Source of the DNA: Hungatella sp.
GTDB taxonomy: Bacteria > Bacillota > Clostridia > Lachnospirales > Lachnospiraceae
Reading direction: 5' to 3'
Length of the DNA stretch: 64,000 nt
NCBI GenBank assembly: GCA_022792815.1
Contig: JAAWBS010000021.1
Span: forward strand, 62,001-126,000
Positions 1-13,223 of this stretch are shown here, one piece after another. Below the pieces are notes generated by a model. It saw nothing but the letters and a program-made list of their open reading frames with translations. It searched no databases and was not told the origin of the DNA. Both the position numbers and the translations under genes were made by a program. Within the stretch, counting starts at the first letter, position 1. Every line of letters starts with the position of its first letter.

Positions 1-1179
1 AAACATGATTGAGAGCGGAATATTCAATAGGGCACTTGTCAGCGCCATGACGCTATACAATTTCACATCTCCAATCCCACATAGAAACGAAGCATAATTT
101 CCAGAAAATAAATATATTATAAAATATACAGCCATTACAAAGAGCATATTGGAGCTGTAATCTATCGCATGACCCAGCCATAGTCTTGATATCGGTTCAA
201 TCAAAATAAACAGCATAAAAATTCCAACAGATAAAACTACTGCAATCCATTGCATTTTATTGAATTTTTCACATATCCATTTATATTCTCCCTGTACCTT
301 CGCATTGGTAAAGGCAGACCACATCGGCATGATGACAACTCCCTGTAATTGTACAAATACCATAAATAATTTATATGCCACAGAATAAGGCGTTACATCC
401 GAGGCAGTGAAAAGCTTTGAAATTAGTATATTGTCGGTTGAATTCATTACAAGCGCACTGATCTGACCACAAAAAAATAAAATTCCCAAGGAGGTAATGG
501 AATGGATAAGTTCCCTATTGAATTTATTTTTTTGTAATCTTAGATATGGATATTTTCTAAAAATATAAATATTTAGAATGCCGTTAACGATCACTGAAGA
601 GCTTCCAAGAGTCAACGAAATCAAAACCATATCTGCAGGTCTGAAAGCTCTGCAAAGCAGAACAAATATGATATTCAATATATGCAAAAAAAGTCCGCAA
701 ACAGAGGCAAGTGCCGGCTGCTGCATGGAATAGGTAATCGTATTTCCGAGTGACAAAACAAAATTTATGCAAATAAATAATACAGTAATCCAGACAGCTA
801 ATCTGACATTTTCACCGGCAATACTTATATTTAGAAAAGTCGGCAGGTCAATCAATAATGATATCACCCAAAAACATCCGAAGATACATACAGAAATTAC
901 TGATATCACCGCATAAGAAGTAGCTACAATCTCGCCGGATTTTTGGTCGTCTCCCGCGGCCAAGCTCTCGGCCAACTTATTACGCATCCCGTTGCCTATA
1001 CCGATATCAAACACGCTGAACCAATTGACAAAGGCCGAAATTGTAGCCCAAACCCCATACTTTTCGTCTCCCAGATAGTCTAATAGTACAGGAATATAGA
1101 TCATTGAGAGAAGCATGGTTAAAGGTTTAAGAATCACATTGATACCGATATTTTTATATAATCTTTTATCATTCATCAT
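1..1179 (-). CDS. Polysaccharide flippase (Wzx/RfbX-like), C-terminus cut by window edge
   Basis: Membrane protein expected to flip lipid-linked repeat units across the cytoplasmic membrane. The frame is open from an ATG at 1179 through base 1 (393 codons seen; the family is usually 420-500 aa). The N-terminus reads MMNDKRLYKNIGINVILKP, followed by IPVLLDYLGDEKYGVW and FDIGIGNGMRNKLAE, the typical start of Wzx/MATE-like polysaccharide exporters, with repeated hydrophobic segments after it. Its ATG overlaps the TGA of the upstream gene (ATGA), so translation is probably coupled. It is the most promoter-distal gene of the locus seen here. Substrate specificity cannot be read from the sequence. 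Confidence 0.88.
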   Translation of the reverse strand, partial: MMNDKRLYKNIGINVILKPLTMLLSMIYIPVLLDYLGDEKYGVWATISAFVNWFSVFDIGIGNGMRNKLAESLAAGDDQKSGEIVATSYAVISVISVCIFGCFWVISLLIDLPTFLNISIAGENVRLAVWITVLFICINFVLSLGNTITYSMQQPALASVCGLFLHILNIIFVLLCRAFRPADMVLISLTLGSSSVIVNGILNIYIFRKYPYLRLQKNKFNRELIHSITSLGILFFCGQISALVMNSTDNILISKLFTASDVTPYSVAYKLFMVFVQLQGVVIMPMWSAFTNAKVQGEYKWICEKFNKMQWIAVVLSVGIFMLFILIEPISRLWLGHAIDYSSNMLFVMAVYFIIYLFSGNYASFLCGIGDVKLYSVMALTSALLNIPLSIMF

Positions 1180-2099
1180 CTTTGTTTCAACACAATCGTT
1201 TTCTTATAATTAAGGTTATTGAACATTACTGCCGCACTGGTCACATTTGATACACCACATATTAAGTAATCACATTTGCTTAATAACAGCGCATCTAATA
1301 ATACTTCTCTTCCCAACAAATAGTGATGATGGGAACGATTAAAATTCTGTTTATGTATCCCGACAGAAGAATGTCCTGATGAGCGATACGCATTTAATGA
1401 AAATACCATATCTCCATATTTCTCTTTAAACCAATTAACCGCATCTATTTCGTCACAGCAGAGAAAAATCCTAAAATTTCTTCTGCCCTCTAGCAATTCA
1501 TCTACTTTATTAGAAATATTTATTATTCTCGGAGGAATGGAATGAAATTTTCTTTTCTCATTCATATCCGTCCCTCGTATATGGACGCCTATGCATTCTT
1601 GATCCGAAATGTATTTTTTATATAGAGAGGAACATTCATCTAAAATTTCTTTATGAACAGGAATCCTTTCCGACTGTAAAAGATATAATTTCCTTACCAT
1701 TTCCTCTGTAATATGTCCTTGATTTATATGATAGACCGGAACTCCTAAATCACCATAGTATTGATTCTTAGATAATACATAATTACCAGAAGCATAAGCT
1801 TCTTCAATATGTATACGATCTGGTTGTTTAAAATAATACTCCCAGCTATTTAATATTCCATGATATTCATTCTCTTCAGAATATAAGGTGGGATAGTTTT
1901 GCATGTCAACTACACTTTTCCAGCCGTGCTGATCCGCATAGATTATATTAGACAACACATAAAAGTAGTTTGAAAAAAAGCCTTCCCACAACGGCTTTCT
2001 TCTAATTATATAATAGATGTCTTTGTTTCGATCTGTTATATGTTTTTTTTCTATATATCGAAAATAATCTAACTTGGCTTCAATCCAGTTGTGTATCAT
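1176..2099 (-). CDS. Fucosyltransferase-like glycosyltransferase (HxRxTD family)
   Basis: 307 aa. The motif GVHIRGTDMNEKRKF near residue 170 is the donor-binding HxRxxD signature shared by GT11/GT23/GT65-type fucosyltransferases. It is followed by a Rossmann-like FRIFLCCDEIDAVNWF and a C-terminal CDYLICGVSNVTSAA, the usual GDP-sugar-binding end of the fold. A second divergent member of the same family lies at 5959-7035 with the same order of motifs. GGAGGAATT precedes the ATG. The role is inferred: transfer of a sugar, perhaps fucose, to the repeat unit. Donor and linkage are unknown. Confidence 0.75.
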   Translation of the reverse strand: MIHNWIEAKLDYFRYIEKKHITDRNKDIYYIIRRKPLWEGFFSNYFYVLSNIIYADQHGWKSVVDMQNYPTLYSEENEYHGILNSWEYYFKQPDRIHIEEAYASGNYVLSKNQYYGDLGVPVYHINQGHITEEMVRKLYLLQSERIPVHKEILDECSSLYKKYISDQECIGVHIRGTDMNEKRKFHSIPPRIINISNKVDELLEGRRNFRIFLCCDEIDAVNWFKEKYGDMVFSLNAYRSSGHSSVGIHKQNFNRSHHHYLLGREVLLDALLLSKCDYLICGVSNVTSAAVMFNNLNYKKTIVLKQR

Positions 2100-2123: not shown

Positions 2124-2729
2124 TTATATATGTTTCACGATCCTGGCAGGATTACCTGCCACAACTGTATAGGCAGGGACGTCATGCGTCACTACCGCCC
2201 CGGCGCCGATTACAGCTCCTTCACCAATAGTTACCCCCTTTAATACGATTACATTTCTCCCAATCCATACTTTATCTTTAATGGTGATCGGCGAAGTCTT
2301 CACTACAGACCAGTCTTTATTTTTCAAAGGGTTATGATATTTTATATTATCGTCTATGACCTGAATCACATCATTTTTCCTTTCGCCAAAAAAAATCGAA
2401 TGCGAATCATGATCATAGAGAATCGTTCCTCCGGCGATAATGACATCATCTCCTATCATATCATCTGATCTGCAGATAATGGTCGCTCCGCCGCTTATCT
2501 GAGTTCTGGAACCTATGTTTAAACTGCCTTTTTCTGTCTCAAATATGATATTTCCCCCAATCAAAGAATGTTCACCGACAGTAACGTATATTTTCCCCCT
2601 CTGAGGATTTGATAAACGCAGCGAAAATGTATTTTCAAACATTACATTCTTATCACACTGCAAAAATATTTTTTTCTTTTTTAGTTCTCTCTTTAAATGG
2701 CAAGACTTAATAAAATATTTCAGATTCAT
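2124..2729 (-). CDS. Hexapeptide-repeat O-acetyltransferase
   Basis: 201 aa left-handed beta-helix acyltransferase. Hexad repeats run through most of the protein, ending in [37 protein letters not shown] and a final PARIVKHI, the hallmark C-terminus of the maltose/galactoside acetyltransferase (Xat/NodL) group. It probably O-acetylates a sugar of the surface polysaccharide using acetyl-CoA. Its start overlaps the 3' end of the epimerase gene by 23 nt and is preceded by GAAGGTAAAT. Confidence 0.82.
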
Positions 2730-3621
2730 ATTTACCTTCTTTTAACCAATCACAATATTTTTTTATTCCCTCTTCAAATGATATACTCTGATGATATTGT
2801 AACTCCTTTAATAATGTCACATCTGCCTTCCAGTGATTCGGATCCCCTTCACGTACATACTGATTAAAACAGATAGAAGATTCATCTAAGTGAAACTCTT
2901 TTGCAAAAAGTCTCGCTGCTTCACTTATTTTTATCTCTATCCCGTTTCCCACATTAAATATAGATTCATCGGATTCTGCTGTGGCAATTAAAAAGATAGC
3001 TTTTACCAGATCATCAATATAAATATAGTCTCTGCTTTCATCTCCTGTTCCATACATATCCAAGCGACCTGTCTTTTTCAATTTACAAAACATATCCCAA
3101 AAAATCTGTTTTTGTAATCCAACACCATATGCGGAAAAAATACGTGCAATTTTAATGTCCATACCATAATTTACTTTAAAATAAATACAAATATCTTCAC
3201 ATAATTGTTTATGTAATGCATATGGCGACATCGAATTTAAGGGAGCTCTTTCACTCACTGGCAAAAATGGAGGATTTCCATATACACCTGCGCTGGATAA
3301 AAAAACCAGACGCGATCGCATCTCTAACTTTTTCATCGCAAATATTAAATTATGAGTAGCTTGTACATTATTAATAAAATCTTCATTTGGTCTTTTGATG
3401 GAATCCTGTACATTTGCCGCACCCGCACAGTGAATAATAATATCTGGAGATATGGATTTCAGATTCTCCAAAACCGATGCCCAATCTTCTAACCTGACAG
3501 CCTTTCCTTCTCCTTTATCATTCTTTTTTACCCATCTGATCACATGATGATTTTGTACGAAAAAGTAGTTTGATACTGCATTTCCAATAAATCCGTTAGC
3601 TCCTGTAATTAATATATTCAT
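2707..3621 (-). CDS. NAD-dependent sugar epimerase/dehydratase (SDR family)
   Basis: 304 aa extended short-chain dehydrogenase/reductase. The N-terminal GANGFIG motif (about residues 7-13) binds NAD(P), a Ser-Ser-Ala stretch lies at 109-111, and the catalytic Tyr134-x3-Lys138 sits in [21 protein letters not shown] and the IFNVGNG segment are typical of GalE/RmlB-like nucleotide-sugar enzymes. It likely makes or modifies a nucleotide-sugar precursor. The exact reaction (4-epimerase, 4,6-dehydratase or reductase) is not decidable. Only a weak GGGGGT ribosome site precedes the ATG. Confidence 0.82.
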
Positions 3622-3642: not shown

Positions 3643-4779
3643 CTAATATTCCTCTATTACCCTTTCAAATACCTTAGAATACCTCTCCGCGTAATTGTAC
3701 ATCTTTTTCAATCCATTTCTTATATCGCATTGATGGTCAATTTCATTTTCTTGTTCCAATATCTGTTCCAGTTCATCGGAATTCAATGGGTCAAACAAAA
3801 TACATTTCTCATTTTTCTGCTCCCTGTGAACGGACAGATCTGAAAGTATTATGGTTTTATCTAATACCTTTGCATCTTCTACCACGGTTCCCCAGCCTTC
3901 AAATAAAGAGGGCTGTATGATATATTCGGCATTCTTCATAATAGCGATCTGCTCTTCTCTTGCAATAAATCCTAATAGACATATATGTCCTGAAAGTATT
4001 GAATCATTGAATAAGCTTTTTATCTCTTCAATATATTTTTGATTTCTTTCATCTGACATCCGGCCAGTAAACACATAAATATATTCAGAATGAGGATTTT
4101 TCGTAAAATACTTTTTTAACGCTTCCAAAACAATTTTATGGTTTTTATGCTGCCAAAATTGATTCATAATACAGGCATATTTTTTGCCATTCAAATTAAA
4201 TTTTTCTAATATCCCATATTCATTCTGTTCTATTTTATAAATTATATCTTCAATATAAGACACGAATGGCATAACATATACATTCCTTTTTGTCTGCGAA
4301 TAAAACCTTCTGAAATCATTCATAGAATCATTACTGCTCAAAATCAGAGGAGCACGGTTATTACCCTTATATTCAAATTCAAGCGTCCGGTTTATTAGCT
4401 GTTTTTCAGAAAAGAACTCCGGAAAATAGTTATGCTGAAAATCAGGAATCCACATAATTGGCTTAATTCCAAAACACCTTTTTATGAAATTCGGAATTTT
4501 TTCTAATCTTGGACCTGGATATAAATATCCTCCTTTATGTTTTATAAGATACCTGAGCAGTTCTAAATTATTTTCCCTTTTTCCTCTCCCCTTGCAGGTG
4601 ATAACACAAATTTTTTCTTTCGCGAAATCAAACAAGTGTCTGTTTTCAAAACTTGTAAAAACTACTAATCTATCAGATAAATGTTTATTTTGCATCAACT
4701 GAAACACAATATTTCTGCTATAATAGATTCCACCTATCCAGTTTTTATCACCGAATGCTCGGATAATGATTTTTTCCAT
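3643..4779 (-). CDS. GT4-family glycosyltransferase
   Basis: 378 aa. The C-terminal half carries KYACIMNQFWQHKNHK, IYVFTGRMSD and the E-x7-E region FEGWGTVVEDAKVL, diagnostic of GT-B fold family 4 transferases. The ATG at 4779 (MEKIIIRAFG) was chosen over an in-frame upstream start at 4809: GAGGAAAA lies at the right distance before it, and it begins 12 nt after the stop of the upstream polymerase instead of overlapping it. It presumably adds one sugar of the repeat unit at the cytoplasmic face. The substrate is unknown. Confidence 0.85.
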   Translation of the reverse strand: MEKIIIRAFGDKNWIGGIYYSRNIVFQLMQNKHLSDRLVVFTSFENRHLFDFAKEKICVITCKGRGKRENNLELLRYLIKHKGGYLYPGPRLEKIPNFIKRCFGIKPIMWIPDFQHNYFPEFFSEKQLINRTLEFEYKGNNRAPLILSSNDSMNDFRRFYSQTKRNVYVMPFVSYIEDIIYKIEQNEYGILEKFNLNGKKYACIMNQFWQHKNHKIVLEALKKYFTKNPHSEYIYVFTGRMSDERNQKYIEEIKSLFNDSILSGHICLLGFIAREEQIAIMKNAEYIIQPSLFEGWGTVVEDAKVLDKTIILSDLSVHREQKNEKCILFDPLNSDELEQILEQENEIDHQCDIRNGLKKMYNYAERYSKVFERVIEEY

Positions 4780-4790
4780 ATTTATTTTCC

Positions 4791-5948
4791 TCAAATGATT
4801 TTTGGGCAATTACCTTTAAAATAAGTATATAGACAAAACGCGGTCAGTACAAATAAATTGTAAGTCCCTATAGGCTCATTGCAAAGTGACAGAATCGTCC
4901 ATACTATAACAGCACATTTGACCATTATATCTGTTTTTGCTTTCATTATATTGAAGAACCATCCCGCAACTAAACCCAAACCAAGTAAACCAAAATCATA
5001 TATATACAAGAAAAAACTATTTGTGGTATCAAGATTCCCAATTCCATTTCCCAAAATAGGATGTTCCAGTATGCCTTCTATTAAAATATACATATCACCG
5101 AGTCTTCCGGTAAGGCTCTCTATTCTTGATCTTTTTCGTTCTATCCATATGCTGATTAAAATGCCGCAGACTCCTGCAGAAACAGGCAGAGATTCAACCA
5201 CTCGCATATAGTTTTTACTTCTATATAGGAAGTAGATTCCTAAAATCAAGCACAAAAGTATAGCACCCATAGTTGAAGTTGTTGACACTACGGCTATTCC
5301 AAGTATAATTGCCTTTATATAATTTGTTTTTTTTCGAAAAAAAAGTTCAAAAATCAAAGCGTAATTAATCCAGATCATATATAAACCTGGCTCTAAAAAT
5401 GGGCCATTACAGGAATTAAACTGCATTCCAAATACTTTTCTAAGATCATGCCACCTATAATAGATATTAAAATAATTTGTAAACTTCAAATCATCAATAA
5501 TAATAGATTTTCCGGTATCTACAAAGGGGCCTATATCAAAGAGCAGCCACATAATCAGGTAAAAAATAGTAATGAAAAAGAAAAGAGAGGCTAACTCCTT
5601 AAGTAAATTAATTCTCTTTTTTTGACAATACAGATAAAAAACAAATACACCCAATATCCTCAATGAAGTAGTACAGTATACCTTTATACTTCCTCCTGCC
5701 AAATAGGTTAAAAAAGCAAGTCCTACTCCCCCTGTAAAAAACAGGATAATTTTATAGAAATCTCTTTTTCCAAGCCCCAATAGCCCTATACACAAAAATA
5801 TATTGGTGAATATTTTTGCCAATCCATTAAACGAGCGATAGACAACATTATACATAGAACCAGAGGTGTAAATAAGAAGAATAAGGCAAATGTAAGTATA
5901 GAGAAGCAAAATATTGCATCTCGAGTTCAATTTCAATAGTCTAAACAT
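4791..5948 (-). CDS. O-antigen polymerase/ligase-like membrane protein (Wzy-like)
   Basis: 385 aa and almost entirely hydrophobic, with about ten predicted membrane segments. A longer extracytoplasmic stretch around residues 150-190 contains GPFLEPGLYMIW. The HPILGNGIGN motif near residue 290 resembles the HPLLGxGxGN signature of Wzy/WaaL-type proteins. It probably polymerises flipped repeat units outside the membrane, consistent with a flippase in the same operon. Sequence identity in this family is low, so the call rests on topology, the short motif and context. Confidence 0.75.
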   Translation of the reverse strand: MFRLLKLNSRCNILLLYTYICLILLIYTSGSMYNVVYRSFNGLAKIFTNIFLCIGLLGLGKRDFYKIILFFTGGVGLAFLTYLAGGSIKVYCTTSLRILGVFVFYLYCQKKRINLLKELASLFFFITIFYLIMWLLFDIGPFVDTGKSIIIDDLKFTNYFNIYYRWHDLRKVFGMQFNSCNGPFLEPGLYMIWINYALIFELFFRKKTNYIKAIILGIAVVSTTSTMGAILLCLILGIYFLYRSKNYMRVVESLPVSAGVCGILISIWIERKRSRIESLTGRLGDMYILIEGILEHPILGNGIGNLDTTNSFFLYIYDFGLLGLGLVAGWFFNIMKAKTDIMVKCAVIVWTILSLCNEPIGTYNLFVLTAFCLYTYFKGNCPKII

Positions 5949-5958
5949 ATATATTATC

Positions 5959-7035
5959 CTACAATTTTTTCTTAAGCATATTATGAAACGGAGATCGAAC
6001 CTCTTTCAAATTATGGTGAATTCCTTTATCAATGATCTCAATATAATCATATTTTTCTTCACGAGCTCTTTTTACAATTCTTGCACAAATAGAAACATTT
6101 GAATTGCCCGCAATTAATCCATCACACATCCCCAGTGTATAGAAATCCTTGATAATTTCCAGTCCCAACAAATACTTGTGATGTTCCCTTTCAACCATAT
6201 AATTTCCATAGTGAATCGCATTGCCATCCACAGATCGATAGGTATTCTTATAAAATTCTAATTTATCGCCAAAGCAATCTTGAAATAAATTAACCACACG
6301 CTGATCATCCGTAGCCAAAAAGATCTTTTCATACTTTCTCTCTGTAAAGGCTTTTTTCGCAATATCCAAATATTCCGCTGGTGATACGGCCACGGGATGC
6401 CGATTATAGCCTTGATTAAAATCCGTGGCTCTCACATGTACTCCAAGCGTTTTCCCTCCATTGGCCGCTTCATTTAATTCGAACTCAATCGTCTCCTTTA
6501 CCCTATCATTTAGTTTCATATATTTCTTGAAGATTTTTGCTAAAAAATCAATTTCCTGCTCATCAGGTATCTCGTAAGACCCCATTTTTCCAAAAAGCGT
6601 CGCATCATAAGGTTTTGACCGGGTTACCTTCATATAACGATTTATATCCGTTACTCCTATGTCTGAAACCGTTTTGAAAAAGTATTCAAACACATTATCT
6701 CCCAGCCCTGCGGATTCATCATAATACATAGAATTCGGACCGATCCGAACGACCGGACAAAAACCGAAAAAGTCACTGTACGCCAACAATTGCAATAACG
6801 TTTTGACTAATGAGCTGAATCCATTATAGCGATAGTCATAATCCATATTAATGTAATAAATCCATTTTCCTGTTTCTTCAGCATCTGTTACATTGACATT
6901 AATCATATAGGGGCTGTTTATAGCTTGGATTATTTTTTTACAGTTATCTTCATTCCCAAGATTTTTTATGATTGTCAACACACAGCCCAACCGCGGGTTT
7001 TCTTTTATTTTAAATTTCAATCTGTCCAAATTCAT
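5959..7035 (-). CDS. Fucosyltransferase-like glycosyltransferase (HxRxTD family), second copy
   Basis: 358 aa. GVHVRATDFNQGYNRHP carries the HxRxxD donor-binding signature. KIFLATDDQRVVNLFQ and GMCDGLIAGNSNVSICA match the C-terminal motifs of the protein encoded at 1176-2099, so the two are divergent members of one family. The N-terminal 150 residues are longer than in the partner and probably form the acceptor domain. The ATG overlaps the stop of the upstream cytidylyltransferase gene (ATGA). Family assignment (GT11/GT23-like) is from motifs; donor and acceptor are unknown. Confidence 0.77.
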   Translation of the reverse strand: MNLDRLKFKIKENPRLGCVLTIIKNLGNEDNCKKIIQAINSPYMINVNVTDAEETGKWIYYINMDYDYRYNGFSSLVKTLLQLLAYSDFFGFCPVVRIGPNSMYYDESAGLGDNVFEYFFKTVSDIGVTDINRYMKVTRSKPYDATLFGKMGSYEIPDEQEIDFLAKIFKKYMKLNDRVKETIEFELNEAANGGKTLGVHVRATDFNQGYNRHPVAVSPAEYLDIAKKAFTERKYEKIFLATDDQRVVNLFQDCFGDKLEFYKNTYRSVDGNAIHYGNYMVEREHHKYLLGLEIIKDFYTLGMCDGLIAGNSNVSICARIVKRAREEKYDYIEIIDKGIHHNLKEVRSPFHNMLKKKL

Positions 7036-8216
7036 ATCGTTTCAACCACATTAGAAAGAAGAAAATCAACGATCTCTCTGATTACTCCTCCCCCACCCTT
7101 TGTTTTTGTGACATATTTCGCAACATCCTTTATCTGCTCGACCGCATCCGAAGGACAGCAGCCAAAACCGACCGATTTTATTAAGTCCAGATCATTCATG
7201 TCATCTCCCACATAGGCAACATTGCGCAAATCGATCCCACATTCCTCACATATTCTTGTGACAGCCGTAATCTTATCTATACATCCTTGCTCAAGAAAAT
7301 CTAAATTTAATTTTCCGGCCCGTCTTCGGTTCAGTTCAACATTCTCACTTGTAATAATTCCTGTTAGTATTCCTTGTTTTTTTAGCAATGCAAATCCCAT
7401 TCCATCTCTTGTATTAAATTTCTTCAGCTCATCACCGTTTTCAGAATAATACATCCCTCCATCTGTCAAACAGCCGTCACAGTCTGTTAAAAAGAGTTTA
7501 ATTTCCGGAATCTTTTCAAAATCCGCAACTTCTCTTTTTTTCATTAATCCCTCGATCGTTACCCAATCTTCAGGCTCGTCAATCTCAAAAAAAGTATCTT
7601 CGCTCATCTCTACTGCTTTTATCTTTCCCGATAATCGATTTGCAGAGTTTATTAAGCACACCTTGGAAGTAATATAAAATGCTCCGTTTTCAACAAGATA
7701 TCCATTAAAATCCTGTCTCCGCGGACGCTGTAAAACATCGTAATTCGTTGGGTAGGCATATCCGTTCTCATCCTTCTCCCAGTTAAATCTTTTTTGTGGA
7801 ACAACCGATAAAACACTATCTACATCATCTTCATAAAAAACCTGAAAACCTCGATTCAAATCTGCTGCCTCAAGCAGTGGAGAAGTGGCTTGTATCAAAG
7901 CAATGTTGTCAAATTCAAAGGCGGCAGCAAACTCAAGCATAGCTGATTCAGTGGAAGCCGTATCCGACGCCGATTCGGCAGATCGCCCTATCACCTCAAC
8001 TTTCGCGAAGGTTTCTCCTTGTTCCCTATCTTTTATAGATTCCACTGTTTCTTTGATTGATAGGCTGTCAGTCGCCACATAGACTTTATCGATAAATCTA
8101 CATTCACAGGCTGCTTTTATTGTCCAATATACCAGTGGTTTTCCATTCATAATTTTAATGTTTTTAAGAGGAATAGATTTGCTGCCTCCGCGTACCGGTA
8201 TGAACGCTGCATTCAT
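7032..8216 (-). CDS. neuA: CMP-nonulosonate (sialic acid) cytidylyltransferase fused to KdsC-like HAD phosphatase
   Basis: 394 aa bifunctional protein. Residues 1-230 are an acylneuraminate cytidylyltransferase: IPVRGGSKSIPLKN is the CTP-binding loop, followed by ALIQATSPLL. Residues about 238-394 are a KdsC/YrbI-type HAD phosphatase with catalytic DCDG (Asp245/Asp247), IITSE, the QGCIDK lysine and YVGDDMNDLDL, all intact. The start at 8216 (MNAAFIPV) was chosen because AGGAGAAAA precedes it; an upstream in-frame codon at 8234 lacks this. The phosphatase domain implies a 9-phosphorylated nonulosonate intermediate. It sits directly downstream of the neuB-like gene. Whether the sugar is Neu5Ac, Kdn or another nonulosonate is open. 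Confidence 0.88.
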   Translation of the reverse strand: MNAAFIPVRGGSKSIPLKNIKIMNGKPLVYWTIKAACECRFIDKVYVATDSLSIKETVESIKDREQGETFAKVEVIGRSAESASDTASTESAMLEFAAAFEFDNIALIQATSPLLEAADLNRGFQVFYEDDVDSVLSVVPQKRFNWEKDENGYAYPTNYDVLQRPRRQDFNGYLVENGAFYITSKVCLINSANRLSGKIKAVEMSEDTFFEIDEPEDWVTIEGLMKKREVADFEKIPEIKLFLTDCDGCLTDGGMYYSENGDELKKFNTRDGMGFALLKKQGILTGIITSENVELNRRRAGKLNLDFLEQGCIDKITAVTRICEECGIDLRNVAYVGDDMNDLDLIKSVGFGCCPSDAVEQIKDVAKYVTKTKGGGGVIREIVDFLLSNVVETI

Positions 8217-8234
8217 AGTTTTTCTCCTCGCCAA

Positions 8235-9104
8235 TCAATGGTTTCTATATTTCAATTTCTCTCTTTGAATTTGTTCGATCTTAAGGATTTCATTTTTTTT
8301 ATATGTCAGTGATTCGTAGACTGCATGAAGATTTCTTACAAGCTTCCTTACTCCATCCGGTTCGAGTGAGGCTGCGTGATCGGTACCTTTCCAAGTACGA
8401 TCCAAGGTATAGTGCCGCTCCAAATACGCCGCTCCAAGAGTATAGGCCGCTATATCTACAGCAATTCCCAAATGATGTCCAGAGAATCCGATTGATTTCA
8501 CACGTCCTTCATATTGTTCCTTCATACGGATAATCTCCAGCAGACATACATCCTTAAATGGTACCGGGTAACCGGAAGTACAATTGTAGAGAATCAGATC
8601 CTTCGCCCTTCCTTTTCTTTCAAAAAGTTCGACTATCTGCTCTTCCTCTTCTTTTGTCGTCATACCAAAAGAAAGCTGAATCTCACCTTCATAATGATCG
8701 CAAAGCCATTGAAGCATTTCAAAATGAGTATTACATGCTGATGGGATCTTAATAAACCGTGGGTTAAGATCGGATATTTCTTTTGCGCTGGTCAAATCCC
8801 ATACAGATGTGGAGTAAATAATACCAGCTTCCTCACACCATTTTTTTAACTGCCGATGCTGATCTGCATCAAACTCAAGAAATTCTCGATGGGCCCCGTA
8901 TGTATCTCCATAAGAATTAGCAGGATTCGGATGCGGCGCATCATATTGTTCGGGTGTAAGGAGTTCTCTTGGACAGCGCTTCTGAAATTTGATCGCATCT
9001 GCCTTACAGAAATGGGCGGCTATCTCAATAAGATCCTTTGCTATCTCCATTTGCCCCATATGATTACATCCCGCTTCCACAATAATAAAAGGTTTCTTAT
9101 ACAT
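8235..9104 (-). CDS. neuB: Nonulosonate (N-acetylneuraminate-type) synthase, NeuB family, lacking the SAF domain
   Basis: 289 aa TIM-barrel synthase condensing phosphoenolpyruvate with a hexosamine-type aldose. Visible NeuB motifs are IVEAGCNHMG (residues 8-17), DAIKFQKR (36-43), FIKIPSACNTHFEMLQW, LSFGMTTKEEE and ERHYTLDRTWKGTDH. Usual length is about 340-350 aa because a C-terminal antifreeze-like SAF domain covers the active site. Here the gene stops soon after the barrel, with no sign of a downstream frameshift in the 18 nt before neuA. The partner enzyme is the CMP-sugar synthetase next door. No NeuC-type epimerase is in the window. Confidence 0.87.
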   Translation of the reverse strand: MYKKPFIIVEAGCNHMGQMEIAKDLIEIAAHFCKADAIKFQKRCPRELLTPEQYDAPHPNPANSYGDTYGAHREFLEFDADQHRQLKKWCEEAGIIYSTSVWDLTSAKEISDLNPRFIKIPSACNTHFEMLQWLCDHYEGEIQLSFGMTTKEEEEQIVELFERKGRAKDLILYNCTSGYPVPFKDVCLLEIIRMKEQYEGRVKSIGFSGHHLGIAVDIAAYTLGAAYLERHYTLDRTWKGTDHAASLEPDGVRKLVRNLHAVYESLTYKKNEILKIEQIQREKLKYRNH

Positions 9105-9128
9105 AGTTAAATTCTTCCTTTCCCCCTG

Positions 9129-9965
9129 TTATTCTATAAAGAGGGAATCAAAATCCACTCTTTGGAATACCTCTAATTTTCCGCCCCGCGTTGCATTATA
9201 AATTTGAATTCCATGCTTATCAGCATAGTTTTTTGCCGTCAGATACGCGTTGGTCATGCCTTCAATATTTCCTATTATTTTTGTGGCGCCTGTATCCTTA
9301 AAAAAGTGAGATCGGTTCACCGCATTATTTCTTACTACCTTCCCCGAACTATCGATTTCATACGGAAAGGAGTGATCGATTCCCAACAGATAAATTTCTT
9401 TATATCCCATATATGCGGCAATTTGAAGATTTACAAATGTTACCGTTGCCCCAATATAGATTTCTTTTGCCATATCATCGCTGAAGCCAAAAGATTCCAG
9501 CTTAAGATCCAGTGTCCTGTGACCATAAAATACAAGAGCATTTTTATTGGTAATCTTATGTTTTCTAAAAAAATAATCACCAAAGAAAATATGCGGAATC
9601 TCTAACTGGTTTGCCTCCGCCGAGCTTATTCCATGCCAGTCATCTACTGCATAATAATCTGGACGCCAGCTGGTTTCCGGAAAAATTTTAAAAATACGAT
9701 TGGCAGTAAAACAATCTTCCTCCTTAAGCCTTTCCAAGTCCTGTACCGTCAGACTCGGCCCATTTCCAATAACAAAACATCGTTTTCCCTTCTTACTGTC
9801 TTTTAGTTTTCTGATTTCATCTGTATAGTGAAATTTTTTATCTAATATAGAGTAATACAGCTTCCCATAATCTCTGACAAACATGCAGCAAAGACGATAT
9901 AGCCTTGGAAAATGATGAATTATATTCCTAATCTGTTCCCCTATCCTGATTTTCAGTTCATCCAT
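9129..9965 (-). CDS. DUF115/MptE-like protein, candidate nonulosonate transferase
   Basis: 278 aa. FVIGNGPSL near residue 45 is the nucleotide-binding motif of DUF115 (MptE-like/motility-accessory-factor) proteins. The later MGYKEIYLLGIDHS and NRSHFFKD segments resemble, from memory, the corresponding parts of Campylobacter Cst-type GT42 sialyltransferases, whose fold Maf proteins share. Position next to neuB and neuA supports a role in transferring the CMP-activated sugar. That role is inference; the automatic label for this family is often hydroxymethylpterin pyrophosphokinase. The ATG at 9965 is chosen because AGAGGGTG lies 5' of it; a GTG at 9974 sits inside that site. It overlaps the upstream gene by 8 nt. 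Confidence 0.7.
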   Translation of the reverse strand: MDELKIRIGEQIRNIIHHFPRLYRLCCMFVRDYGKLYYSILDKKFHYTDEIRKLKDSKKGKRCFVIGNGPSLTVQDLERLKEEDCFTANRIFKIFPETSWRPDYYAVDDWHGISSAEANQLEIPHIFFGDYFFRKHKITNKNALVFYGHRTLDLKLESFGFSDDMAKEIYIGATVTFVNLQIAAYMGYKEIYLLGIDHSFPYEIDSSGKVVRNNAVNRSHFFKDTGATKIIGNIEGMTNAYLTAKNYADKHGIQIYNATRGGKLEVFQRVDFDSLFIE

Positions 9966-11154
9966 TTTTTTCACCCTCTATTTGCTGTAAGATATCCTCA
10001 TCAACGATCTCTTCTCCCGTCCTCTCAATCAATTGGGCCTTACTGGTTTCACTCAATCCATCATAAATTTTGGCATTCCTATCGCAGGTACTGCATCGGT
10101 CTAATTGTTCCTTTGTGACTATGCCGTCTCGATAATCGCGACAGATTTTATTTTCATAAATGGAATATGGCTGTTCAAACAGCAGTGATTTTAGCTTATG
10201 CTTTAGCACCCAGGCAGCCGGCTTCCAGATATATTTATGCATGGCAGGACTTACGCTTCCTATCATCCAACATTGACGATCACAATGGCGCACTTTTTCT
10301 CTTATCTTTTCTGCCTCGCCGCTATTCCATAATTCATCCCAACTTTGTCTGTTTAAGTTTCCCATAACCTCTTTATCCTTTGTTCCATTACATGGCATCA
10401 CGTCACCGTAAGGATCGATAAAGAAGGTATCAAATGACATATCGCAGGGGAGCAGACGCGGCTGTCCATAAATATAATTAATCAAACCATGATTAAAATA
10501 TCCTCTGAACCATTTTTTAGGGCTATTGCTCTTTATCAATTCATTAATCAGCTTCTCAAAATTTTTGGCCACCATCTGCCGGTCATGGATGATATTTTTT
10601 GCCTCAACAAAATAAAAGCTGTTATGAAGGCTCGCAGTTGCGAATTCCATTCCCATCTCGTTTGAGATTTTGTAAAGAGGTACGAGATCAGGGGCGTTCT
10701 TATCCTGAACAGTCATACCAAAACCGATATCCCGTATTCCCATCTCATTAAGTTTTTTCAATGTTTGACAGCCCCGCTGATAACCATTCTCAAGGCCTCG
10801 TATCTCGTTATTAACCTTCTCAAGACCTTCAATAGAAATACGGATACCAACATTGGGGAATTCTTTACATAAATCAATAATACGATCCGTAAAAAAACCG
10901 TTTGTGGAAATCACGATCCTGTCAGATTTCTTATATAACTCATAAACAATATCTTTTAAATCTTTCCGAATAAAAGGCTCTCCGCCAGTAATATTTGTAA
11001 AGTACATTTTTGGCAATCTTTGTATTACTTTAATTGAAATTTCTTCTTCTGGTCTCGATGGTGCCTTATAACGATTGCACATGGAACATCTTGCATTACA
11101 GCGGTATGTTACAATTACCGTCCCGTTCAACTTTTTGTCAAAATTACTTTTCAA
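9958..11154 (-). CDS. Radical SAM protein with SPASM/Twitch-like C-terminus
   Basis: 398 aa. The CNARCSMCN motif (residues about 19-26) binds the radical-SAM 4Fe-4S cluster, and TNITGGEPFIRKD supplies the GGE motif for S-adenosylmethionine. Further cysteines (LPCDMS, VMPCNGT, RHCDRQC, CSTCDRN) suggest auxiliary clusters as in SPASM/Twitch enzymes. Start codon is TTG at 11154 behind AGAGGAGAAAAA. It lies between a GT4 gene and the DUF115 gene, so it may modify a sugar or carrier used by the locus. The substrate is unknown. Confidence 0.82.
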   Translation of the reverse strand: MKSNFDKKLNGTVIVTYRCNARCSMCNRYKAPSRPEEEISIKVIQRLPKMYFTNITGGEPFIRKDLKDIVYELYKKSDRIVISTNGFFTDRIIDLCKEFPNVGIRISIEGLEKVNNEIRGLENGYQRGCQTLKKLNEMGIRDIGFGMTVQDKNAPDLVPLYKISNEMGMEFATASLHNSFYFVEAKNIIHDRQMVAKNFEKLINELIKSNSPKKWFRGYFNHGLINYIYGQPRLLPCDMSFDTFFIDPYGDVMPCNGTKDKEVMGNLNRQSWDELWNSGEAEKIREKVRHCDRQCWMIGSVSPAMHKYIWKPAAWVLKHKLKSLLFEQPYSIYENKICRDYRDGIVTKEQLDRCSTCDRNAKIYDGLSETSKAQLIERTGEEIVDEDILQQIEGEKNG

Positions 11155-11167
11155 TTTTTCTCCTCTA

Positions 11168-12313
11168 TCACCTATAATTTATCTCTCTATAAAGTTCTGC
11201 TGTTTTCTCAGCTGTTATGTCCCAGCTATATTTTTTACATATATAATCAGATGCCTTTTCTCTGTATTTCTGAACCAAACTTTTCGTTTCACAGGCTGTC
11301 TTTAGTTTTTCCTTCAAATCTTCCACATCACCTTTTTTGAACACCATCCCATGGTTTTCCACAACAGAGGCACATTCTTCTATGTCCGAGACAAGACAGC
11401 AATTGCCGTAACTCATCGCTTCCAACAAACTTAAAGGCATCCCCTCCAGATCACTTGGAAGAACATATAAATAAGCATTGCTATATAATTCTTCAAGTAT
11501 CTGTCCCTGAATAAATCCTGTAAAAATAATCCTGTCATCTCCCCTTGCCAGCTCTTTTAACTGATCTAAAAAAACATCAGTATCTGAACTTCCGCCAGCG
11601 ATTACCAATTTTTTATCTATATTTATTTCTCGAAACGCATTGATCAGATATTGGATTCCTTTCTCCGGCACCAATCTTCCCAGAAATAAGATATACTGGT
11701 CTTTTTTCAATCCATATTTTTCCGTTATTTTTTCTGCTTTTCTAACTTCTGGTCTACTCACACCATTAGGGATAAATCTGGTCTTCCTTCCATAAGTATT
11801 TTTAAAATAGTTTTGAATCCCTTTACTCAGTACGATGATTTCATCCGCATATTTTACAGCACATTTTTCTCCAAACATGATATATGCAGATGCCAGTTTT
11901 CCCCATTTCGCTCTCTGATGGTCTAAACCATGAATTGTAGCAATGCATCGTTTCCCAAACAGTTTTGGTAACCATAACATAGCACACGGTCCCTCTGCAT
12001 GAAAATGAACAACGTCATAGTTTCCAAAAGCTGTACTTATTGCTCCAAACAGAGATGCCGTCATTGCGGCAAAACCCTTTATATTTACTGTAAATACGGC
12101 TTTCAATCTAACACCTTTATAATTTTTTCTCTTTTTCGTATCATATTCTTTTCCGCAAATGTGATGCCCGTTACGGTTATAGCACGTTACGCAATAACCA
12201 TGCTCAACCAAACGAGTGGCTAATTCCTCCACAACAATCTCTATACCGCCTTCGCGGGATGGAATACGTTTGTGTCCAAGCATTGCAATATTTAGTTTTC
12301 CTTCCCCCGCCAT
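11168..12313 (-). CDS. GT4-family glycosyltransferase
   Basis: 381 aa. N-terminal HKRIPSREGGIEIVVEELA is the acceptor-domain start typical of bacterial rhamnosyl/mannosyl GT4 enzymes. The C-terminal domain has FLGRLVPEKGI, KLVIAGGSSD, and SDLEGMPLSLLEAMSYG with the E-x7-E pair that holds the nucleotide-sugar. The ATG at 12313 (MAGEGKLNIAML) is preferred: AAAGG precedes it by about ten bases, while the upstream TTG at 12322 overlaps that site. It follows the recombinase-like gene by 34 nt in the same operon. Confidence 0.86.
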   Translation of the reverse strand: MAGEGKLNIAMLGHKRIPSREGGIEIVVEELATRLVEHGYCVTCYNRNGHHICGKEYDTKKRKNYKGVRLKAVFTVNIKGFAAMTASLFGAISTAFGNYDVVHFHAEGPCAMLWLPKLFGKRCIATIHGLDHQRAKWGKLASAYIMFGEKCAVKYADEIIVLSKGIQNYFKNTYGRKTRFIPNGVSRPEVRKAEKITEKYGLKKDQYILFLGRLVPEKGIQYLINAFREINIDKKLVIAGGSSDTDVFLDQLKELARGDDRIIFTGFIQGQILEELYSNAYLYVLPSDLEGMPLSLLEAMSYGNCCLVSDIEECASVVENHGMVFKKGDVEDLKEKLKTACETKSLVQKYREKASDYICKKYSWDITAEKTAELYREINYR

Positions 12314-12347
12314 AGAATCCAACCTTTCCTATGCTTTCCGGCTAATA

Positions 12348-13223
12348 TCAACCGCATTCCTCCATCAAAAGTTCTCTTGCGTACTTCCTCATACTGCATT
12401 TCAAATCTTTAGGCGTATATTCTTTTTCAATTCCTGCCAGCACCCGATATTTATCAAAAATTAAAATGATCATCTTCATAGAAAGAGGTTTGCCAATCTT
12501 TGATAAAAACAGGTAATGGTCATATCCATTGTCTTTTTCGAAATACTCATGATCATTTATCCACAATTCCATTTTCCCTTTCAATTCTCTGGAAAACAGA
12601 TTTTCCTGACGTGTTTTTCCTCGTTTGCCATGTATAATCAATAAGCCTGTCTTTTTGTCATAGTCAGAGATCTCCAATCTAAGCAGTTCACTGATCTCGA
12701 TTCCATGAAAAAACAAAAGTTTCATCATAACGATATCTCTCAAGCAAACTCGTCTGCGAAACTCCTGGTCCAGATTTTCATATTCCCGATTCATAGAAGC
12801 AAAAAAAACATCGATCTCTGATTTTGATAATATATGATCATCTTTTGCCTCTTCAATCTTTGCTGCCGGAGGGGTAATCGCCCGATGATCCGCCAACTCA
12901 CCCTGTTTGAACAGATATTCCAGATAATACTGCAAAACTCGGTATTTTCTTATAACCGTAGAGGGCTTTCTCTTCTTTTCATTCATCAGGTAGTTTAGAT
13001 AGTCTTCTGCCACACTTTTTTCTAAGGCCGGTATCTGATGTTCTCCAAGCCACATATACATCTGTTTCAAGTCAAACTCATAAGCTTTCGCCGTTCGTTT
13101 ATCCAAACCTCTCTGAATGACCTGGCTGGTAACAAAATTTTCTATCTTTTCGCTATCTGAGAGGCTTTCTCTTTTTTTCTGTGCTTTTTCCTTCAATATG
13201 GTCTGAGCCGGCAGCGTGTTCAT
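12348..13223 (-). CDS. Degenerate tyrosine-recombinase-like protein (catalytic residues lost)
   Basis: 291 aa. Residues 25-120 form a SAM-like core-binding domain (KAYEFDLKQMYMWL) and residues 135-291 a recombinase fold. Catalytic positions are missing: the box I GxRxSE motif reads GIEISE with Glu176 in place of Arg, the HxLRH box reads PKDLKCSMRKYA, and the protein ends at LLMEECG before the Tyr segment. It is therefore unlikely to cut DNA. It has a good ribosome site (GAGGAGGGG), an intact frame and heads the polysaccharide operon, so a DNA-binding regulatory role is possible. No att-like direct repeats were noticed nearby. Confidence 0.78.
   Translation of the reverse strand: MNTLPAQTILKEKAQKKRESLSDSEKIENFVTSQVIQRGLDKRTAKAYEFDLKQMYMWLGEHQIPALEKSVAEDYLNYLMNEKKRKPSTVIRKYRVLQYYLEYLFKQGELADHRAITPPAAKIEEAKDDHILSKSEIDVFFASMNREYENLDQEFRRRVCLRDIVMMKLLFFHGIEISELLRLEISDYDKKTGLLIIHGKRGKTRQENLFSRELKGKMELWINDHEYFEKDNGYDHYLFLSKIGKPLSMKMIILIFDKYRVLAGIEKEYTPKDLKCSMRKYARELLMEECG

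Follow-up and report, generated by a model that had tools for sequence, protein, structure and literature searches.

A predicted Kdn module with a stand-alone Maf-type DUF115 protein in a polysaccharide locus of Hungatella sp.

Introduction

The condensation of mannose 6-phosphate and phosphoenolpyruvate (PEP) to the 9-phosphate of 2-keto-3-deoxynononic acid (Kdn) is described as established in Bacteroides thetaiotaomicron and the alga Prymnesium parvum. The P. parvum Kdn-9-phosphate synthetase is reported to take mannose 6-phosphate and not N-acetylmannosamine 6-phosphate (ManNAc-6-P), with BT1714 of B. thetaiotaomicron as its bacterial counterpart, and both pathways continue with a Kdn-9-phosphate phosphatase and a CMP-Kdn synthetase (PMC6200933). 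B. thetaiotaomicron has been reported to make Kdn (PMC12413058), and in Gram-positive walls the sugar is described from the teichulosonic acid of Streptomyces (PMC11481543). Here, we analyse a stretch of 64,000 nucleotides from Hungatella sp. (assembly GCA_022792815.1, contig JAAWBS010000021.1, positions 62,001 to 126,000; hereafter the window), in which three adjacent genes encode a sialic acid synthase-like NeuB without a SAF domain, a NeuA cytidylyltransferase fused to a haloacid dehalogenase-type (HAD) phosphatase, and a DUF115 (PF01973) protein. This block is likely to be a module for Kdn within a surface polysaccharide locus of the wzx/wzy type, with the DUF115 protein as CMP-Kdn transferase, and each half of that statement, Kdn as the sugar and transfer by the DUF115 protein, is held with higher confidence than the whole. 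The analysis shows directly which genes and domains are present, the predicted fold, the conserved residues and the neighbourhood of the genes; each of the catalytic reactions, which sugar is made, and to which acceptor and by what linkage it is attached are inferred from these.

On the transferase side, Maf proteins are described as glycosyltransferases placing nonulosonates on flagellin (PMC13317340), and PF01973 corresponds to their central domain, which resembles Cst-II (PMC11339370). ORF4 of the E. coli K15 capsule locus, also a Maf/Cst-II-type protein, was predicted by a fold argument to be an alpha-Kdo (3-deoxy-D-manno-octulosonic acid) transferase, and CDD, Pfam, dbCAN and InterPro seemingly left it unassigned (PMC7387560).

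The Hungatella locus shares the predicted set of synthase, phosphatase and synthetase with B. thetaiotaomicron and P. parvum. Unlike in those organisms, the phosphatase is fused to the synthetase, and a candidate transferase gene accompanies the others in a wzx/wzy-type locus of a Bacillota genome. With Maf, the DUF115 protein has in common the central-domain fold, a GxGPS loop and linkage to CMP-nonulosonate genes, but Maf is a three-domain protein encoded with flagellin, whereas the window protein is the central domain only (278 amino acids, aa) and its locus holds no flagellin gene, those of the genome being on contigs C62 and C32. K15 ORF4 differs in its E. coli capsule setting and in its sugar, Kdo rather than Kdn. 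A literature search on DUF115, MptE-like and Maf transferases in polysaccharide loci, with subscription papers mostly outside it, found only the K15 prediction and no study that tested a DUF115 transferase of the single-domain kind. We know of no characterised bacterial Kdn transferase.

Results and Discussion

All three genes named in a first-pass annotation made from the sequence alone are present on the minus strand with intact frames. They lie in a small wzx/wzy-type polysaccharide locus whose minus-strand genes, according to the list of open reading frames (ORFs) and family scans, run from the flippase gene 1-1179 to the GT4 gene 11168-12322 (Table 1). The genome (3.8 Mb, 73 contigs, 89% complete) carries the window on contig C27. 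In the proposed pathway, NeuB would make Kdn-9-phosphate from mannose 6-phosphate and PEP, dephosphorylation by the HAD domain would follow, and the NeuA domain would then form CMP-Kdn. The DUF115 protein would move Kdn from CMP-Kdn onto the lipid-linked repeat unit under assembly, to be flipped by Wzx and polymerised by Wzy. The first-pass annotation had proposed a make-activate-transfer unit in a capsule-type locus; sequence comparison and structure prediction support this interpretation, which appears largely right. We would describe the unit as a cassette supplying the Kdn donor, paired with an interchangeable transferase that is here a free-standing Maf-type domain.

Predicted donor synthesis

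NeuB scores well above the PF03102 cut-off (227.3 bits against 22.1), and its nearest solved chain is 6ncs (290 aa). The synthase had been described at first sight as lacking the C-terminal SAF domain, which was borne out by a Pfam scan (no SAF match at E ≤ 0.001) and by an alignment of 15 orthologues, the window protein and 14 others that are 66-87% identical to it. SAF is absent from all 15, which stop at the same point with a KLKY-type tail, so the short form characterises the whole group and does not reflect a truncation. The SAF domain of NeuB contacts the N-acetyl group.

In the fusion protein (400-aa numbering, from TTG 8234), the NeuA domain is matched by PF02348 at residues 9-139 and a Kdn-9-phosphate-phosphatase/KdsC-type HAD occupies residues 245-394. 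HAD residues 243-394 align end to end with residues 2-153 of PDB entry 3e81, which we take to be BT1713 of B. thetaiotaomicron, bearing out the earlier claim of fusion to a complete KdsC-type phosphatase. E297 and K308 align with Glu56 and Lys67 of 3e81, a pair that presumably sets Kdn-9-phosphate phosphatase specificity. E/K occurs at these positions in all 12 distinct NeuA-HAD fusions (L064 and L139 denote one place, as do L027 and L140, and each pair was counted once). The stand-alone HADs of DUF115 loci (n=15) have R/E in 14 cases and K/E in one; another stand-alone HAD, in L142 next to a short NeuB from a different group, has E/K, and six longer HAD proteins pair E with M or R. Entry 4hgq, listed among the HAD matches, carries Ala at position 56, indicating a position changed by the depositors. 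The nearest solved NeuA is 9t4z (4.3e-48), named PpNeuA. Should this be the Prymnesium parvum CMP-Kdn synthetase, it would favour Kdn.

Among 397 genomes from the family of the window's organism, 13 carry a NeuB of this orthologue group, which stands well apart from the next matches (66% against 38% identity). These 13 genomes, locus L003 and a genome of the same genus (G003) gave 15 cassettes, 12 of which contain NeuA-HAD within the stretch examined. In three (L003, L128, L136) a gene between neuB and neuA-HAD encodes CBS domains and a ManC-type phosphomannose isomerase (PMI) cupin (PF01050, 2e-33 in L128; GMP_PMI, 110 bits in L003 and 103 bits in L136), which points to mannose 6-phosphate as the substrate. 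The window locus has no such gene; a type I phosphomannose isomerase domain is encoded elsewhere in the genome.

Several observations weigh against Kdn. The HAD domain misses the cut-off of the Kdn-9-phosphate phosphatase equivalog NF058599 by 6 bits (174.2 against 180) and passes that of the broader KdsC-type subfamily TIGR01670 (136.4 against 106.95), and three cassettes (L130, L134, L135) are without NeuA-HAD in the stretch examined. The same enzymes could instead make CMP-N-acetylneuraminic acid or another CMP-nonulosonate by a 9-phosphate pathway from ManNAc-6-P, as in vertebrates, with the DUF115 protein as a sialyltransferase. NanE, encoded elsewhere in the genome (219.7 bits), could supply ManNAc-6-P; the best equivalog model of NeuB is N-acetylneuraminate synthase (TIGR03569), yet at 184.4 bits against a cut-off of 399.65; and the HAD matches include 3ewi, a HAD domain named N-acylneuraminate cytidylyltransferase and presumably from the vertebrate enzyme. 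We nevertheless consider this route unlikely, as the HAD scores higher on NF058599 (174 bits) than on TIGR01670 (136 bits) and has the E/K pair, PMI genes lie inside three of the 15 cassettes, no orthologue has SAF, and the NanE and NeuC families are not found among the scanned locus proteins. This last result is consistent with the first-pass remark that the locus holds no NeuC or phosphosugar supply gene.

The DUF115 protein

The candidate transferase exceeds the PF01973 cut-off (56.3 bits against 34.6) and contains the GNGPS (70-74), GYKEIYLLGID (190-200) and NRSH (220-223) motifs pointed out earlier (281-aa numbering, from GTG 9974). A PDB search with the single sequence gave one chance match (E 1.2), and its PDB relatives needed a profile search. 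Structure comparison of the predicted model agrees with the initial suggestion of likeness to Maf and GT42 sialyltransferases: it has the fold of the Maf central domain and of GT42 enzymes, residues 33-281 align to 244-512 of the 632-residue Maf 5mu5, and the profile matches to Maf and Cst-II agree. Among 50 homologues, G72, S74, N260 and T262 are invariant (50/50), and D112 (48/50), N92 (47/50) and H223 (39/50) are widely kept. N92 aligns with Cst-II Asn31 and D112 with Glu57. We take Asn31 and Asn51 of Cst-II to bind CMP and His188 to be its catalytic base.

The fold of Cst-I/Cst-II is shared, but the GT42 Pfam family gave no match (PF01973 alone at E ≤ 0.001). Two alignment results count against the transferase reading: no conserved residue stands opposite Asn51, and His188 aligns not with H223 itself but with a variable position four residues after it (D in 16/50). 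Furthermore, 6-hydroxymethylpterin pyrophosphokinase (HPPK) is Foldseek's best match for the model and second by VIA-align. A fold matching HPPK only had been named beforehand as the outcome that would speak against a transferase. The HPPK fold is indeed matched, but so is the Maf/GT42 fold, so that the protein does not resemble HPPK alone. The archaeal HPPK/MptE (8sd5) shares the fold, but the profile match is limited to residues 20-91 of 260, weaker than those to Maf and Cst-II, and the DUF115 gene stands in a context of CMP-sugar synthesis.

Gene neighbourhood of DUF115 proteins

Searches for DUF115 homologues covered 61 relatives, 398 genomes of the phylum and the 397 family genomes. Homologues were found in six of the relatives and 41 of the family genomes, while the phylum-wide search returned only the window's own genome at E ≤ 1e-10. 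The 56 loci examined comprise the window, five named contigs holding DUF115 relatives (Bacillus pinisoli among them) and sets of 10 and 40; L020 was taken for a NeuB-like match, and the weak matches of G789 and G820 were left out. Counts refer to 53 loci, as no DUF115 ORF was called in L020, L079 and L088. A gene was called NeuA-like at 125 bits or more with a local profile; seven of the 52 members of the local NeuA set match IspD and are assumed to be the seven matches below 125 bits dropped before counting.

A NeuA-like gene lies within 7 kb in 42 of the 53 loci (41/52 without the window) and within 3 kb in 34. Five further loci have NeuB or an HMGL-like aldolase, giving 47/53 with some CMP-ulosonate-type gene. 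As a control, homologues of the GT4 encoded in this locus were taken from 120 family genomes; none of the 19 loci around them has a NeuA-like gene within 7 kb (Fisher p 6e-10 without the window), although three controls (L150, L151, L159) are short contig ends, which weakens them. The link is not built in, since DUF115 and not NeuA was used to find the loci. NeuB is within 7 kb in 16/53 loci and an HMGL-like aldolase of about 529 aa in 19/53, never both together. The first-pass annotation had suggested a survey of whether SAF-less NeuB and NeuA-HAD co-occur with this DUF115 subfamily. Adjacency stood at the level of loci, but no excess beyond chance appeared at the level of genomes, where three of the 13 NeuB genomes among the 397 have a DUF115 homologue against 1.3 expected (P 0.14), a point against the proposed reading.

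Within the 15 cassettes, a non-Maf DUF115 gene stands directly beside neuB in four (window, 278 aa; L003, 285; L139, 431; L140, 266) and 6 kb from it in L130. Maf-size PF01973 proteins (618-675 aa) adjoin neuB in L137 and L138, in the latter next to a flagellin gene, and L133 has one on the opposite strand at a distance of some kb. In L128, neuB adjoins a PF07388 polysialyltransferase gene. The remaining six (L129, L131, L132, L134, L135, L136) show no recognised transferase, their neighbours having been scanned with Pfam (11 of them) or with the local DUF115 profile only (the rest), and they too count against the proposed reading. In the DUF115 tree, whose bootstrap had not settled, the window and L003 proteins pair as sisters within a starred group of four and L064/L139 fall in another starred set; L068/L130 and L140 (a long branch) are placed elsewhere with weaker support, and the Maf-size proteins form a separate, distant clade. 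A single kind of donor cassette thus occurs with transferases that share a fold but belong to separate lineages, and in one case with a known sialyltransferase of another type. That such pairings recur is the strongest argument for CMP-sugar use by the DUF115 protein.

These data also bear on the idea that a GT4 or a FUT8-like protein moves Kdn and that the DUF115 protein has another nucleotide-binding role, for example a pyrophosphokinase-like one. The HPPK ranking speaks for it. The partial HPPK profile match, the NeuA linkage absent from the controls and the replacement of the DUF115 protein by Maf-size proteins or a polysialyltransferase in other cassettes make it improbable. As far as is known, enzymes of the GT4 and FUT8/NodZ families draw on other sugar nucleotides, and apart from the DUF115 protein no scanned locus protein matched a CMP-sugar transferase family.

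Gene layout of the locus

Table 1. Predicted features of the polysaccharide locus, and isomerase fusions of related cassettes (positions in the window unless a locus is named)
Feature	Position	Strand	Basis or remark
Wzx-like flippase, 433 aa	1..1179, ends outside the window	-	from the sequence by eye, not by search; whole in L170:17879-19180
NodZ/FUT8-like fucosyltransferase family protein	1176..2099	-	PF05830 30.4 bits, PF19745 29.1 bits, both above cut-off
Hexapeptide acyltransferase	2124..2729	-	PF00132 44.7 bits
NAD-dependent sugar epimerase/dehydratase	2707..3621	-	PF01370 164 bits
GT4 glycosyltransferase	3643..4809	-	PF00534 49.8 bits
Polytopic membrane protein, probable Wzy polymerase	4791..5948	-	hydrophobic stretches
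FUT8/NodZ-like protein (weak), possible GDP-sugar transferase	5959..7035	-	PF19745 19.7 bits, below cut-off 27.6
NeuA-HAD fusion: CMP-nonulosonate synthetase (N-terminal), Kdn-9-phosphate-phosphatase-type HAD (C-terminal)	7032..8216	-	394 aa from ATG 8216
SAF-less NeuB, predicted Kdn-9-phosphate synthase, 289 aa	8235..9104	-	PF03102 E 2.4e-67
Single-domain DUF115/PF01973 protein, predicted CMP-Kdn transferase	9129..9965	-	278 aa from ATG 9965
Radical SAM/SPASM protein	9958..11154	-	PF04055 and PF13186
GT4 glycosyltransferase (Cps2T-like)	11168..12322	-	PF00534; NF046071 125.9 bits, below cut-off 500
Phage-integrase-family gene	12348-13223		family scan; upstream end of the polysaccharide locus
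CBS domains (KpsF/GutQ-like) fused to ManC-type phosphomannose isomerase cupin	L003:8968-9726; L128:8415-9173; L136:10323-11078		

By eye, ATG 8216 behind GAGGAG is a likelier start of NeuA-HAD than TTG 8234 of the mechanical ORF, and for the DUF115 gene the ATG 9965 chosen in the first pass, which follows GAGGGTG, is preferable to GTG 9974, again the mechanical start. Three intact frames with plausible ribosome-binding sites, the conserved blocks kept, and the alignment of HAD and NeuA to solved homologues and of NeuB to its orthologues leave very little probability for a decayed or silent module that yields no Kdn polysaccharide. Such decay could be read from the lack of a recognised initiating phosphoglycosyltransferase in the family scans of the locus proteins, which come from an assembly 89% complete in 73 contigs.

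The two FUT8/NodZ-like proteins are 29% identical over 263 residues. The 4791-5948 product was considered as a rival sialyltransferase and rejected as a polytopic membrane protein; Pfam and NCBIfam scans assigned it no family and a PDB search gave no match at E ≤ 1. The radical SAM protein was likewise rejected as part of the Kdn block, since its strong homologues follow GT4 instead: they occur (466-665 bits) in nine of the 19 GT4-centred control loci, while a profile match within 7 kb, mostly weak, was found in 15 of the 53 DUF115 loci. The gene seems to travel with the adjacent GT4 gene 11168-12322. The integrase-like gene might have a role in locus switching or mobility. Past the flippase gene, one further ORF of 204 aa is followed by seemingly unrelated genes, as judged by eye.

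Other DUF115 loci

If the proposed functions are correct, a small candidate transferase and its donor enzymes are defined and amenable to a clean in vitro test, and DUF115 proteins of polysaccharide loci, whose family name now refers to a pterin kinase, would more aptly be called ulosonate transferases. Kdn would also be indicated as a surface sugar of these Bacillota, resistant to most bacterial and viral sialidases, which are reported to leave Kdn in place (PMC7845648).

The DUF115 proteins of the examined loci are 212-872 aa long and many are extended at the N-terminus; the single-domain architecture seen in the window is therefore one among several. We see an even chance that those of Bacillota polysaccharide loci, alone or N-terminally extended, form an uncharacterised family of CMP-ulosonate transferases fed by several donor routes. 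On this reading, the routes would lead to Kdn (SAF-less NeuB with NeuA-HAD), to other sugars (HAD-GmhA fusions with NeuB) and to an unrecognised ulosonate (HMGL-like aldolase with a NeuA-like cytidylyltransferase and a KdsC-like phosphatase).

HMGL-like aldolases (PF00682, 4-hydroxy-2-oxovalerate-aldolase-like, about 529 aa) were observed in L019:8878-12093 (contig C14 of the window's own genome), L006, L026, L059, L063, L066, L069, L072, L077, L079, L083, L084, L087, L088, L090-L095 and L097, with a NeuA-like cytidylyltransferase in most and a KdsC-like HAD in about half. They possibly represent another CMP-ulosonate route, on which the literature search found nothing relevant. In L024:9845-12452 and L080:5884-8542, a HAD-GmhA-like sugar isomerase fusion is encoded beside a short NeuB, NeuA and a DUF115 protein, possibly for a heptose-derived, longer ulosonate. 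NeuA-like domains also occur with a HAD in a 644-aa protein (L137:1280-3214) and in fusions with an RraA-like domain (L076:4649-5944), a GFO/IDH/MocA oxidoreductase (L021:1801-3648) and a GT28 C-terminal domain (L061:7112-8710).

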